From Methanomicrobium antiquum (lineage in GTDB: Archaea; Halobacteriota; Methanomicrobia; Methanomicrobiales; Methanomicrobiaceae), in assembly GCF_029633915.1 (NCBI RefSeq), contig NZ_CP091092.1, positions 1,860,001 through 1,924,000 of the forward strand: a stretch of 64,000 nucleotides of DNA, read 5' to 3'. The position numbers and the translations under genes are program-made. Every line of letters starts with the position of its first letter. Position 1 is the first letter of the stretch. Below are positions 14,681 to 21,841 of the stretch, piece by piece. Under the pieces are notes generated by a model. That model made no database searches. It saw nothing but the letters and a program-made list of their open reading frames with translations, and was not told the origin of the DNA.

Positions 14681-14888
14681 ATTTTGTGCAAATTCCGGAT
14701 ATAATCCCTTTTATCTGTCAAATATTTTTTTGCATCCTGAATTGGTTTGGCTTAGTTCATTCATCATCTTTTTGCAGAACAGATAATAATATCTCTTTTG
14801 CACCAGATTTAAGGGTAATGTTTTTCATTGAGAAATTTAAATCTAATGAAACATATAGAAAACAAATATATGGAATATGGGGATTTTG

Positions 14889-15917
14889 ATGAGAAACAAA
14901 ATTAGTTCTGCAAATCTTAGGTTTTGGACAAAAAACCAGTCTGAATCACCGGATATGATTACAGATATGATTATTAATGCAATTTCAGATCCACTCTTTA
15001 TTCTTTCAACAGAAGGGGAAATTCTTTTATGCAACACTGCATGCGAAGATTTCCTTAAAATGAGTGTCTCAGATATCAAAGGGCATCACTGCTATGAATT
15101 AGTTCATAAATTAAATGATTTTATAGAAGGGTGTCCTTTCGTCCGGTCTATGAGATCCAAAGAAAGAGAGACATATAAGGCCAATATTGATGGCAAATGG
15201 TCTTTGGTGACTATTGATCCTTTAATCAATGGAGAGGAAGATGTTGTCGGAGCAATTCATTTTATAAAAGATATTGATAATATTGTTCGTCTTGACGCCG
15301 CAAAAACAAATCTGGTTGGATTAATAGAAAACACTCTCGATGCAATGGCAAGTGTCCTTTTGGATGATACTATCAAATACTGGAATTTGGGTGCAGAGGA
15401 AATTTTTGGTTACACAGAAGAGGAGATTATAGGAAAAAATGCACGAATTCTTATCACAAAAGAAGGAATACCGCATTATGAAGAAATTAAAGAGAAAATA
15501 AGAGCCGGAGAAAAGGTACCAAGATTTGAATCAAAAATGGTTGCAAAGTCAGGTGAGAAAATTGATGTCTCAATCAGTTTTCAGCCTATGTATGATGAAA
15601 GAGGAGTTGTCATAGGAAATTCCTTTATTGCAAACAACCTCACTCCTCAAAGAAAAGCAGAACAGGAACTTTTACATTATGTAACAGAAGGTACAATGCG
15701 GCTTGAAAAACCCGTAGAGATAATAAAACGAAATCTCTCTGACATAAAAGAACTACTCATATCAGGAAAATTAGACTCTCATGATTTAGAACTTCTTCTT
15801 GATGTTCAAATATCAAACGCAGGTCAAATCTATGACAATTTAAAAGAATTAAAAAAAGAGATTGCGGCTAAACAAAAAGATCTCCCTGACGAACACACCA
15901 GATTTTTAAATGAATAG
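14889..15917 (+). CDS. Soluble PAS-PAS sensor with kinase-less DHp-like tail
   Basis: No membrane segment is seen. PAS 1 (about residues 20-125) has a cysteine/histidine cluster GHHCYELVH...GCPF of a type found in many PAS domains and possibly binding a metal or redox group. PAS 2 (about 135-260) ends in a PAC-like segment. The last 85 residues form a helical module starting LLHYVTEGTMRLEKP and ending in ELKKEIAAKQKDLPDEH. It aligns with the tail of the protein at 16654, has no HisKA histidine and is not followed by an ATPase domain. An ATG 12 bases upstream (14877) is possible, but ggggatt precedes 14889, so the latter is preferred. Confidence 0.8.
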   Translation: MRNKISSANLRFWTKNQSESPDMITDMIINAISDPLFILSTEGEILLCNTACEDFLKMSVSDIKGHHCYELVHKLNDFIEGCPFVRSMRSKERETYKANIDGKWSLVTIDPLINGEEDVVGAIHFIKDIDNIVRLDAAKTNLVGLIENTLDAMASVLLDDTIKYWNLGAEEIFGYTEEEIIGKNARILITKEGIPHYEEIKEKIRAGEKVPRFESKMVAKSGEKIDVSISFQPMYDERGVVIGNSFIANNLTPQRKAEQELLHYVTEGTMRLEKPVEIIKRNLSDIKELLISGKLDSHDLELLLDVQISNAGQIYDNLKELKKEIAAKQKDLPDEHTRFLNE

Positions 15918-15931
15918 GAGATTTTACAGGA

Positions 15932-16483
15932 ATGGAGACTACACCAGATGAACAAAATATTTCAAAAGTCATTTTGTTCTTTTCAGATCCTCAAAAAATA
16001 AGAGAGAGCAACACATCAATCATAAAAGAGGCACAGGACAGAGGTTACACACCAATAGTGACCACCATTAATTTTCCTGCATCAATTCTTGAAAAACTCT
16101 ACCTTCAAAATGATTTGGATACTTCAGAAATCTACTTTATAGACGCAATTTCAAAATTTTCAACAGGCCCAAAATCAGTCTCCCCCGATGACAGACACAT
16201 ATTCCTCAATACCCCTTCAGATCTTACAAACTTAAGCATAGCAATATCTGAGATGCTCAAAAGAAACAATGGGAAAAGAATATTAATTCTCATTGATTCA
16301 ATCAGCACGATGCTTATCTATCTTCCTTCTGTTAAAATTTCCCAGTTTGTTCATATTATTTCAAGCAAAATAAGGCAGATCGAAGAGAACTGCACATTTT
16401 TGGCTGTTGAAGGAGGGCTGGATCCTCTTTTATACTCACAGATAAGATCCTTTGTTGACGATGTTGTAGAAGAAACCGGCTAA
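15932..16483 (+). CDS. KaiC/RecA-like protein without a Walker A loop
   Basis: The 183-residue product looks like a single KaiC-type RecA domain. Strand 1 (KVILFFSDP) is followed by QKIRESNTS where a P-loop GxxxxGKT would be, so ATP binding through the usual loop is lost. The Walker B strand is present (RILILIDSISTMLIYL) and resembles KaiC, as does the following helix-strand pair. Such inactive KaiC-like proteins (related to DUF7504 and DUF835 groups) are common beside archaeal sensor genes. The gene lies 15 bases after a PAS sensor and upstream of another, so a role as a signalling partner is likely but not shown. Confidence 0.7.
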   Translation: METTPDEQNISKVILFFSDPQKIRESNTSIIKEAQDRGYTPIVTTINFPASILEKLYLQNDLDTSEIYFIDAISKFSTGPKSVSPDDRHIFLNTPSDLTNLSIAISEMLKRNNGKRILILIDSISTMLIYLPSVKISQFVHIISSKIRQIEENCTFLAVEGGLDPLLYSQIRSFVDDVVEETG

Positions 16484-16653: not shown

Positions 16654-17619
16654 ATGGACATTTATCTGCCTGAAAAATATCAGACTATTCCGGTAAAGCT
16701 ATTTGTTCTGGTAATTTTAACTGTTTTTACTTTAATCATTACGTTTTTTTCTCTTTCAGTAAACGTCCAGGTGGTTTTTACACACTTTTATTACATACCA
16801 ATAATCCTGGCGGCATACTGGTTCACAAAAAAAGCGATTGTCTATACAATTTTTCTCTGTGCATTTTATCTGGTATTAGTCTATATTCTAAGCTTTCATA
16901 ATCTGCAGATTTGTTTGGAAGCACTACTACGATGCCTTATATTTACAGGAATCTCATCAGTAACAGCCATTCTTTCGATGACAATTAAAAATCAGAGGAA
17001 AAAAATTAAAGAATCAGAGATGCTTTACAGGGCAGTCTGGGAAAATGTCCAGGCAGGAATTGTTCTGATAAATCCAGAGGACAACAAAATAATCTCAATT
17101 AATCCTGAAGCCTTAAAGATAACAGGTTTTTCAGAGAGTGAGGTTTTAGGACATGTCTGTCACAAATTAATCTGCCCGACACTGGCCGGAAACTGTCCTA
17201 TAAGAAATAAAAGCTTAAAAATTGAAAATGCCGAACGCATTGCCCTTTCAAAAGATGGAAAAGAAATTCCAATTTTAAAAACAGCAACAGCAATGCAGAT
17301 TGGCGATAATGAATTTTTAATAGAATGTTTCATCGATATTTCAAAGATAAAAGAGGCTGAGGCAACACTGCTTGGGTACATTCGTGAAGCAACCCTTCGC
17401 ATAAGAAATCCGGTAAGTCTTGTAAAAAACAATCTTACAGAGCTTAAAAAGGATTTAAATGATAAAACAATAAACCCTGAATATTTTATCACTACTCTTT
17501 CAGTACAGGAGAAGCACATGGAGGAAATTTTGAAAAATTTAAAGGAAATTGAGCAGGCTGTTGCTGAAAAGCATACGGAAATACCAGAAGAATTAAGAAA
17601 TTACTTAAAAAGAGAATAA
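16654..17619 (+). CDS. Membrane PAS sensor with kinase-less DHp-like tail
   Basis: The first 110 residues hold about four hydrophobic helices. A coiled linker (NQRKKIKESE) leads to one PAS domain (about 125-235) with a cysteine pattern GHVCHKLICP...GNCP, like the PAS 1 of the protein at 14889. The last 85 residues (LGYIREATLRIRNPVSLVKN to EIPEELRNYLKRE) match the tail of that neighbour. RIRNPVSLV recalls the HisKA segment HEIRNPLxxI, but the histidine position is occupied by another residue and the protein ends without an ATPase domain. A gatgtgat site precedes the ATG. A short inverted repeat just after the stop (near 17620-17640) may end transcription. Confidence 0.82.
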   Translation: MDIYLPEKYQTIPVKLFVLVILTVFTLIITFFSLSVNVQVVFTHFYYIPIILAAYWFTKKAIVYTIFLCAFYLVLVYILSFHNLQICLEALLRCLIFTGISSVTAILSMTIKNQRKKIKESEMLYRAVWENVQAGIVLINPEDNKIISINPEALKITGFSESEVLGHVCHKLICPTLAGNCPIRNKSLKIENAERIALSKDGKEIPILKTATAMQIGDNEFLIECFIDISKIKEAEATLLGYIREATLRIRNPVSLVKNNLTELKKDLNDKTINPEYFITTLSVQEKHMEEILKNLKEIEQAVAEKHTEIPEELRNYLKRE

Positions 17620-20281: not shown

Positions 20282-21841
20282 TCAGGATTTTTCAGATTCA
20301 TCAGTATCAATCTCATAATATTTTCTTAGATATTCCCTGATTTTTTCAGATTCCACCCAGCTTTGATCAAGTTCATTTATGAGCCTGTCAATAATTCCTG
20401 CCTGATCCAAAATTTTTTCTGAATATTCTCCGGAAATCATAGATGCATAGCCAACAATTACTGCAAGAGGATTTCTTATCTCGTCATTTAAAGCCGCAAG
20501 TCTCAAAAGATTTTTTTCAATCTGCTTTAATGCCTCAAATTCACGGATCCTTGATTCCTTTTCTGCTGTGATATCAACAAACGAACAGTGAACGCCATGG
20601 AATATGCCTTTTTTATCTCTGACTTCCGAAACTGAGCCGATTCCATAAAATGATGAGCCGTCATCGCGTAACCCCAAAACCTCACCTGTACGGCTGTCTG
20701 ATTTTTCTTTCTCCTCAATAGTTTTATCTTTAAAAAAATCTGATAAAAACTCAGTGTTTTGTATTAACGATGAGATTTCTCTCATTTTTGCAGCCTTTTC
20801 ATCAATATTCCACTGATTTTGTGCGGCTTTATTCATATAAACAATCCTTCCGGATTCATCAGATATCACAACAGGACTTACCGATGAATCTATTGCAAGA
20901 TTTTTTAGCAAAAGTTCATCTTCAGCTTTTTCAAGTTCATCAGTTCTTTTTCTAAAAGCCCTGTTAAGCCACATATGACTATAAACTGTATAACCTGACA
21001 GGATACCTATAAAAATTACAAAAAACAAGGTGGTCTGTCTGAAAGGCGACATTTTATCCTCAACAAAACCCATCCATCCGTTTTCAGGTGCAATTGCAAA
21101 TGTCCAGATTTCATTGCCTATAGTCATCTCATATAATCCGGGGGAATTATCAAATACAGACTCATTACCATAAAAAACACCATAATCATCGTTTTTCATA
21201 GCTACGTTATATCCATGAATTTTAAACATGCCACTTTGATCATAGATTTTTGGAAGATCAACTGACAATGACACAAAACCCCAGAAATCACCGTCATCGG
21301 ATGTGCCGTTTAGGAAAACAGCCTTAGTTATGATAATTTCATCTTTTCCCAGATGATTTTTTACAGGACCTCTGAGGACAAAAGGCTTCCCATTTAAAAG
21401 ATATTCATTCTGTCTGACAATTGCAGGGCTTGGATCATTAAAAAAATTATAGTTTAAAAAAAACTCATTCCCTGATTCCGGATATATATATGTATAGACA
21501 CCATCAGGTGCAACACCTATGAAATTTAATTCAGAATGGCCTGACAAAAGAGTTTTTGCAAAAATATTGAATCTGGAATCCAGTTTGTTATTATCAATCT
21601 CAGCAACAACAAATGAATAAACACCATCAATGAGCCCTATTTTTTCGTTTATTGAATAAGTAATGGAATTGCTGTAAAAAGAAAATTCATGATGCAGAGT
21701 TTCTTTATGATCGCTTATTAGTTTTTCACTGTAAACCAGACAGCCATAATGCCATATTGGAAGTAATAAAAAAATTACCAGAATACATACCAAAAATGCA
21801 CCAATTACAGGATTTTTTCTGATATATTCAGGATATGTTAT
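20282..21841 (-). CDS. Membrane PAS sensor, kinase-less DHp-like tail, possible AUA start
   Basis: An N-terminal membrane helix, an extracytoplasmic ligand-binding region (Cache/CHASE-like, about residues 40-255), a second helix (about 262-285), a coiled linker, one PAS domain (about 310-440) and a C-terminal helix pair. The pair contains LNDEIRNPLAVIVGYASM, where a kinase would have HEIRNPL; Asp replaces the phospho-acceptor His, and no ATPase domain follows. Conventional initiation is TTG at 21793, which cuts into the first membrane helix. The frame continues upstream, and gaggaggt at 21855-21848 lies six bases before ATA at 21841, giving the N-terminus TYPEYIRKNP before the helix. That start is preferred but unproven. 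Confidence 0.82.
   Translation of the reverse strand: MTYPEYIRKNPVIGAFLVCILVIFLLLPIWHYGCLVYSEKLISDHKETLHHEFSFYSNSITYSINEKIGLIDGVYSFVVAEIDNNKLDSRFNIFAKTLLSGHSELNFIGVAPDGVYTYIYPESGNEFFLNYNFFNDPSPAIVRQNEYLLNGKPFVLRGPVKNHLGKDEIIITKAVFLNGTSDDGDFWGFVSLSVDLPKIYDQSGMFKIHGYNVAMKNDDYGVFYGNESVFDNSPGLYEMTIGNEIWTFAIAPENGWMGFVEDKMSPFRQTTLFFVIFIGILSGYTVYSHMWLNRAFRKRTDELEKAEDELLLKNLAIDSSVSPVVISDESGRIVYMNKAAQNQWNIDEKAAKMREISSLIQNTEFLSDFFKDKTIEEKEKSDSRTGEVLGLRDDGSSFYGIGSVSEVRDKKGIFHGVHCSFVDITAEKESRIREFEALKQIEKNLLRLAALNDEIRNPLAVIVGYASMISGEYSEKILDQAGIIDRLINELDQSWVESEKIREYLRKYYEIDTDESEKS

Follow-up and report, generated by a model that had tools for sequence, protein, structure and literature searches.

The window (the whole stretch of DNA analysed here, 64,000 nucleotides of the Methanomicrobium antiquum genome) contains a two-gene cassette in which a sensor lacking a kinase domain is followed by a KaiC-fold pseudo-ATPase of the DUF7504 family that lacks the P-loop (Table 1). 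The association of this pseudo-ATPase with the C-terminal tail of the sensor is near-obligate, the two genes are almost always present or absent together across the order Methanomicrobiales, and tail and partner diverge in a pair-specific manner. It is probable, in our estimation, that the sensor docks through its tail on its own pseudo-ATPase and that the signal is passed on by binding.

Table 1. Features of the sensor and pseudo-ATPase genes, in window positions
Feature	Position	Strand	Basis
Cognate sensor: two PAS domains and C-terminal tail, without HATPase	14877..15917	+	ORF, Pfam, tail search
Tail of cognate sensor, about 84 aa, predicted helical hairpin, no conserved His	15663..15914	+	genome search, alignment, model
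KaiC-fold pseudo-ATPase, DUF7504 family, 'iKaiC' type, 183 aa	15932..16483	+	Pfam, copies, model, structure search
End of strand 1 and helix in place of P-loop, residues 19-36 (QKIRESNTS = 21-29)	15986..16039	+	model DSSP, alignment, low conservation
Walker B strand and two residues past its Asp, residues 117-124, ILILIDSI	16280..16303	+	alignment, model
Second sensor, 'orphan' tail gene: hydrophobic N-terminus, PAS and tail	16654..17619	+	Pfam, tail search
Tail of second sensor	17365..17616	+	tail search

The identification of this gene as KaiC-like, made in the original prediction from the letters alone, is borne out. The reading frame is exact, starts with ATG and lies 14 bp past the stop of the upstream PAS gene. 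Four copies of the gene (36-100% identity) are present in the host genome, which is archaeal, complete and 2.44 Mb in size, and of the 199 genomes of the order 124 contain relatives (E<=1e-5), with up to seven per genome and the nearest named ones in Methanomicrobiaceae and other Methanomicrobiales; thus, the frame is not a product of chance. The window protein exceeds the curated cut-off of DUF7504 (PF24336; 32.0 vs 27 bits), and the same-genome copy at 891639 falls under it (19.6 bits). All 34 aligned family members match DUF7504 and 19 of the 34 match the KaiC model PF06745 (both at E<=0.01; best for KaiC 2.6e-11). Weak Pfam resemblances extend to DUF7090, to the Elongator subunit family Elong_Iki1 and to DUF835 (PF05763), for which the score is below the cut-off (16.2 vs 33.1 bits). 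No match was returned by NCBIfam for the window protein, nor by a sequence search of solved structures at E<=5, whether the protein or the family profile served as query. When the family profile was compared with four KaiC/RadA-type proteins of the same genome, the match was weak (E 0.008, probability 4.9%), although strand 1 and Walker B were aligned with their counterparts.

The AlphaFold2 model of the pseudo-ATPase, based on an alignment of 34 rows all taken from the window or named loci, has a pLDDT of 92.1 and a pTM of 0.89, and its best match among solved structures is PH0284 (Z 17.0, 167 aligned residues, rmsd 2.6; Foldseek E 4.8e-7). Further matches obtained with Foldseek and VIA-align include KaiC and FlaH (Z about 14-16), Elp456 (Z 14.8) and PH0321. 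The protein is accordingly modelled with a RecA-type alpha/beta core as in KaiC. Strand 1 of the model spans residues 13-18, and helix A (20-36) begins directly after it with no loop between; the QKIRESNTS stretch, which had been read as the altered Walker A site, falls within this helix. The P-loop consensus GxxxxGK[TS] is found in none of 48 aligned family members, Micrarchaeota and other distant archaea included, and its loss is therefore old. To judge from this alignment the loss is a property of the DUF7504 family and not a local event; the P-loop of a KaiC protein encoded in the same genome is intact (L136). The Walker B strand was also rightly said to be preserved, its aspartate (D122) being conserved in 98% of 89 pairs.

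Conservation is distributed unevenly over the predicted fold. Among 147 copies, loops at the edge of the former active site average 2.82 bits and those at the opposite edge 1.64 bits, a contrast whose P value of 2e-5 is indicative only since the copies are related. The most conserved residues include T45, N47, P49, D71, D122, S123, D164 and P165, at the C-terminal ends of strands 2-5. A histidine in the helix after Walker B (H141, window 16352-16354) is the top conserved residue of the protein, at 5.34 bits. The greater conservation of the former active-site face suggests that this face is still in use, for a partner or for a ligand. The second of these options leads to a rival explanation, in which the pseudo-ATPase is itself a ligand sensor or an atypical nucleotide binder at that face and the tail reads its state. 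The concentration of conserved residues at the strand ends would suit such a role, and a missing P-loop alone does not exclude ligand or nucleotide binding: Elp456 lacks the Walker A consensus, yet it is called a hexameric RecA-like ATPase in a title cited by PMC11050213. However, the model has a helix in place of the P-loop, the former P-loop stretch (residues 19-29) is among the least conserved parts of the protein (1.59 bits in 147 copies), and a conserved surface equally fits a protein interface. We regard the ligand-sensor explanation as rather unlikely.

The pairing of tail and pseudo-ATPase is an argument for the binding of one to the other. A search of the host genome with one of the window tails finds exactly five tails. 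All four pseudo-ATPases lie directly behind a tail gene, three of them at distances of 14, 3 and 14 bp and one, with an uncertain start codon, overlapping it, and the fifth tail belongs to the second PAS gene of the window. The 28 genomes of the host's family yield 70 pseudo-ATPase hits, a number that includes fragments, and 60 of them have a tail less than 300 bp upstream on the same strand. Reciprocally, a pseudo-ATPase follows 58 of the 81 tail hits; the other 23 stand without an adjacent one, and 12 of these score above 48 bits. The ten tail-less pseudo-ATPase hits comprise one whose upstream frame resembles a relic tail (G053:C56, L056), two without an intact tail gene (G131:C20, L058; G127:C179, L057), three stand-alone genes from one genus (L059-L061, the contig of L059 having only 1.1 kb upstream) and, for the remainder, fragments. 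Conservation of the gene order in other genomes, put forward as a check with the original prediction, is thus found: 151 of the 169 distinct copies above 120 bits in the loci read lie within 300 bp behind a tail. Of the 18 unpaired copies, eight belong to distant archaea (L039-L041, L043-L047), L037 is at a contig end, and L019 and L074 show the reversed order; the rest are the three lacking an intact upstream tail gene and the three stand-alone genes already mentioned, and L195. No natural fusion of tail and pseudo-ATPase is present among the pairs listed. Two loci each carry three cassettes close together (L110, 1757-9807; L111, 1647-10581).

The distribution of the two genes among the 199 genomes of the order leads to the same conclusion. 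Both are present in 83 genomes and neither in 108, so that 191 are concordant; the 8 discordant genomes comprise 2 with the pseudo-ATPase only and 6 with the tail only (Fisher P 6e-46, with genomes treated as unrelated). Presence was called at E<=1e-25 for the pseudo-ATPase and E<=1e-10 for the tail, and 39 genomes with only weak KaiC-like matches were scored as without. Half of the tail-only genomes (G047, G096 and G116) have only a short, low-scoring tail, which is carried on a REC protein where it was read (L068). In this locus, whose source genome is without a pseudo-ATPase match, and in L069, the REC proteins bear a related but shorter tail in which the IPxAYRxFL end is missing. A C-terminal peptide of that pattern was rejected as a required docking motif, as 18 of 94 paired tails, judged by a loose pattern, lack it or have it in altered form.

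Tail and partner also diverge together. The correlation between their distance matrices is 0.635 (144 pairs, 83 genome groups), and shuffling partners inside the 33 multi-pair genomes reduces it to 0.345 on average, the highest of 2000 trials reaching 0.447. A first run with 89 pairs gave 0.644 against a shuffled maximum of 0.631 (5000 trials). Because the real correlation exceeds those of the within-genome shuffles, the pairs stay together as units. This co-divergence fits dedicated partners but would in part be expected from the duplication of cassettes by itself. Direct couplings between tail and partner reach 2.17 against at most 1.33 in shuffled data; at an effective depth of 89 for 258 columns the strongest of them look clade-driven, and they are not counted as support for contact. 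A joined model, in which the tail and partner of L012 and seven relatives were linked by reading the stop codon as Gly, has a mean pLDDT of 84.8 and a pTM of 0.78. By our own estimate, a randomly placed hairpin would give a pTM near 0.65 (about 180 well-placed of 269 residues), and since the value obtained is higher, some defined placement of the hairpin on its partner is likely in this model. The tether is artificial, and the alignment has 8 paired rows of 45 with no unpaired control and no error matrix; the structure prediction of tail plus KaiC-like domain, as proposed at the outset, is weighed lightly. In a structure search with the joined model the KaiC part alone was aligned.

These observations bear on a second alternative, namely that the pairing reflects co-transcription only, with both proteins serving one pathway without touching. 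Co-expression together with the duplication of cassettes could suffice to explain the pairing, and some co-divergence of a jointly inherited cassette is expected even without contact; moreover, in distant archaea the KaiC-like family adjoins other signalling or pilus-type genes and no tail. Nevertheless, contact accounts better for the fact that 191 of 199 genomes have either both genes or neither and that paralogous pairs within a genome co-diverge in a pair-specific way, and at two loci (L019/L081 and L074) the gene order is reversed with the neighbours kept. Co-transcription as the sole explanation is in our judgement unlikely.

The original prediction placed the gene between two PAS genes. 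This is true of the window; beyond it the layout proves to be local, and only the upstream neighbour is conserved. A further tail gene is found within 1.5 kb downstream of 3 of 80 testable pairs, two of these being the next cassette, so that a lone downstream tail gene occurs in 1 of 80 and the downstream PAS gene was rejected as a conserved third member. A three-gene operon was likewise rejected: in 64 of 143 cases the gene downstream of the pair shares its strand, and the largest blast cluster holds 19 of 143. Outside the order, the common thread of the surroundings is mostly signalling. In Woesearchaeota and Pacearchaeota the KaiC-like family member stands beside response regulators, adjoining a full histidine kinase and a REC protein in one locus (L048, 1888-6574) and two REC proteins in the other (L053, 4106-5555). 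In Micrarchaeota it lies behind a gene for a type II secretion F-like (T2SSF) membrane protein (L044, 3714-5435, the locus on which Pfam was run for this assignment; L045). In Methanomassiliicoccus (L054, 4051-5426) a KaiC gene with an intact P-loop is overlapped at its end by the gene of a P-loop-free KaiC relative, the two possibly forming an active/inactive KaiC pair.

Both flanking sensors were said to be kinase-less, and indeed no HATPase match is found in either by Pfam. The further statement that they are of one subtype holds for the common C-terminal tail and the missing HATPase; their N-terminal parts differ, the second sensor having a hydrophobic, weakly DUF4118-like N-terminus followed by a single PAS domain. 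Among the 120 scanned of 151 upstream partner sensors, PAS_9 occurs in 96, Response_reg in 16 and GAF in 11, and neither HATPase_c nor HisKA is among the best 25 of 29 families. The tail forms the extreme C-terminus, with at most 3 residues beyond it in 136 of 151 sensors. Varied input domains with a constant tail and pseudo-ATPase are as expected of a common output module.

The tail itself appears as a helix hairpin in the joined model (helices 2-33 and 39-69), of the size of the histidine-kinase dimerisation hairpin, and like HisKA it has a proline in its first helix. E9, R13, P17, Q49 and N59 are near-invariant in 144 rows. Histidine occurs in at most 33 of the 144 rows of any column, so none is conserved, and column 12, five before the invariant proline and presumably where a HisKA-type histidine would sit in the H-box, holds Leu or Met in 111 of these rows. 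The tail therefore looks like a dimerisation hairpin minus the phospho-accepting histidine, to go by model and alignment, and its descent from HisKA would be a guess. Comparison of the tail profile with solved structures gives weak helical matches only (best E 0.13), which were left unused. Elsewhere in the window, on the reverse strand (20282-21793), a further kinase-less PAS sensor ends in a HisKA match of 33.3 bits; its H-box, which we take to be NDEIRNPL, has Asp at the position expected for His.

Phosphoryl transfer by the tail is unlikely, given that HATPase_c and HisKA are missing among the sensor families listed and that the tail has no conserved histidine. A two-component remnant, that is, an incomplete histidine kinase ('HisKA, no HATPase') phosphorylated in trans or acting as a phosphatase beside an incidental neighbour, is very improbable: such proteins are known in Methanomicrobia (PMC5847659), the hairpin is of the right size and 4 of 33 tails match HisKA weakly (E<=0.1, best E 0.012; the window tail not at all), but the class is described with a conserved histidine, which the tail columns lack, and the pairing, co-occurrence and co-divergence show that the neighbour is not incidental. 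The claim that the tails act by binding rather than by phosphoryl transfer is thus well supported by pairing, co-divergence and the missing histidine, binding itself being what we infer from them.

Under this preferred explanation of docking and binding, the first gene would provide a PAS (or GAF, or REC) sensor ending in a tail hairpin built like that of histidine kinases, without the phospho-accepting histidine and with no kinase domain behind it, and the second a KaiC-fold protein without a P-loop. The tail would dock on its own pseudo-ATPase, and a ligand-induced change in the sensor dimer would be passed on by binding. The pseudo-ATPase would then be an adaptor, probably by way of its conserved former active-site face, acting on a target that may be encoded elsewhere since no conserved third gene lies downstream. 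A first guess at this target is a P-loop-bearing KaiC/RadA-type ATPase. More specifically, the cassettes may constitute a phosphate-free, one-to-one relay in which histidine-less hairpin sensors act on private pseudo-ATPases that enter mixed assemblies with active KaiC/RadA-type ATPases, with several insulated pairs per genome kept alongside but separate from two-component systems; this extension is tentative and falls short of probable.

Methanogens of the Methanomicrobiales possess many PAS proteins without a kinase or an evident output. Should the tail prove to be a hairpin that docks on a private pseudo-ATPase, a definite partner could be assigned to these proteins, and the hub role proposed for KaiC-like proteins in archaeal signalling could be tested on individual pairs. 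The tail would then also clearly exemplify a two-component-like dimerisation module that serves only for binding.

Inactivated KaiC proteins are already known in archaeal signalling. Galperin 2018 (PMC5847659), citing Makarova 2017, describes inactivated KaiC-like ATPases ('iKaiC'; DUF835, PF05763, and MEDS, PF14417) in archaeal signal transduction and links them in Methanomicrobia to PAS and REC sensors, some as REC-PAS-PAS-DUF835 fusions. The window protein resembles these in being KaiC-fold, inactivated and beside a PAS sensor; unlike the DUF835 type, it is a separate gene of the DUF7504 type, a family for which Pfam names no function, with a near-obligate sensor tail and no fusion among its listed pairs. 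No description of the cassette was found in the literature searched, Makarova 2017, the likeliest place, being outside that search; a near-obligate cassette of a histidine-free tail and its own pseudo-ATPase, present several times per genome and co-diverging, thus appears to be undescribed. Like the 'HisKA, no HATPase' proteins, the PAS, GAF or REC sensors end in a helical hairpin without a kinase domain, but their tail has no conserved histidine and has a near-obligate KaiC-like partner. The Elongator Elp4/5/6 ring is likewise made of RecA-fold subunits without the Walker A consensus; it differs in being a eukaryotic tRNA-modification subcomplex. ArlH/FlaH and KaiC have their fold in common with the pseudo-ATPase and, unlike it, keep the P-loop and ATP binding.
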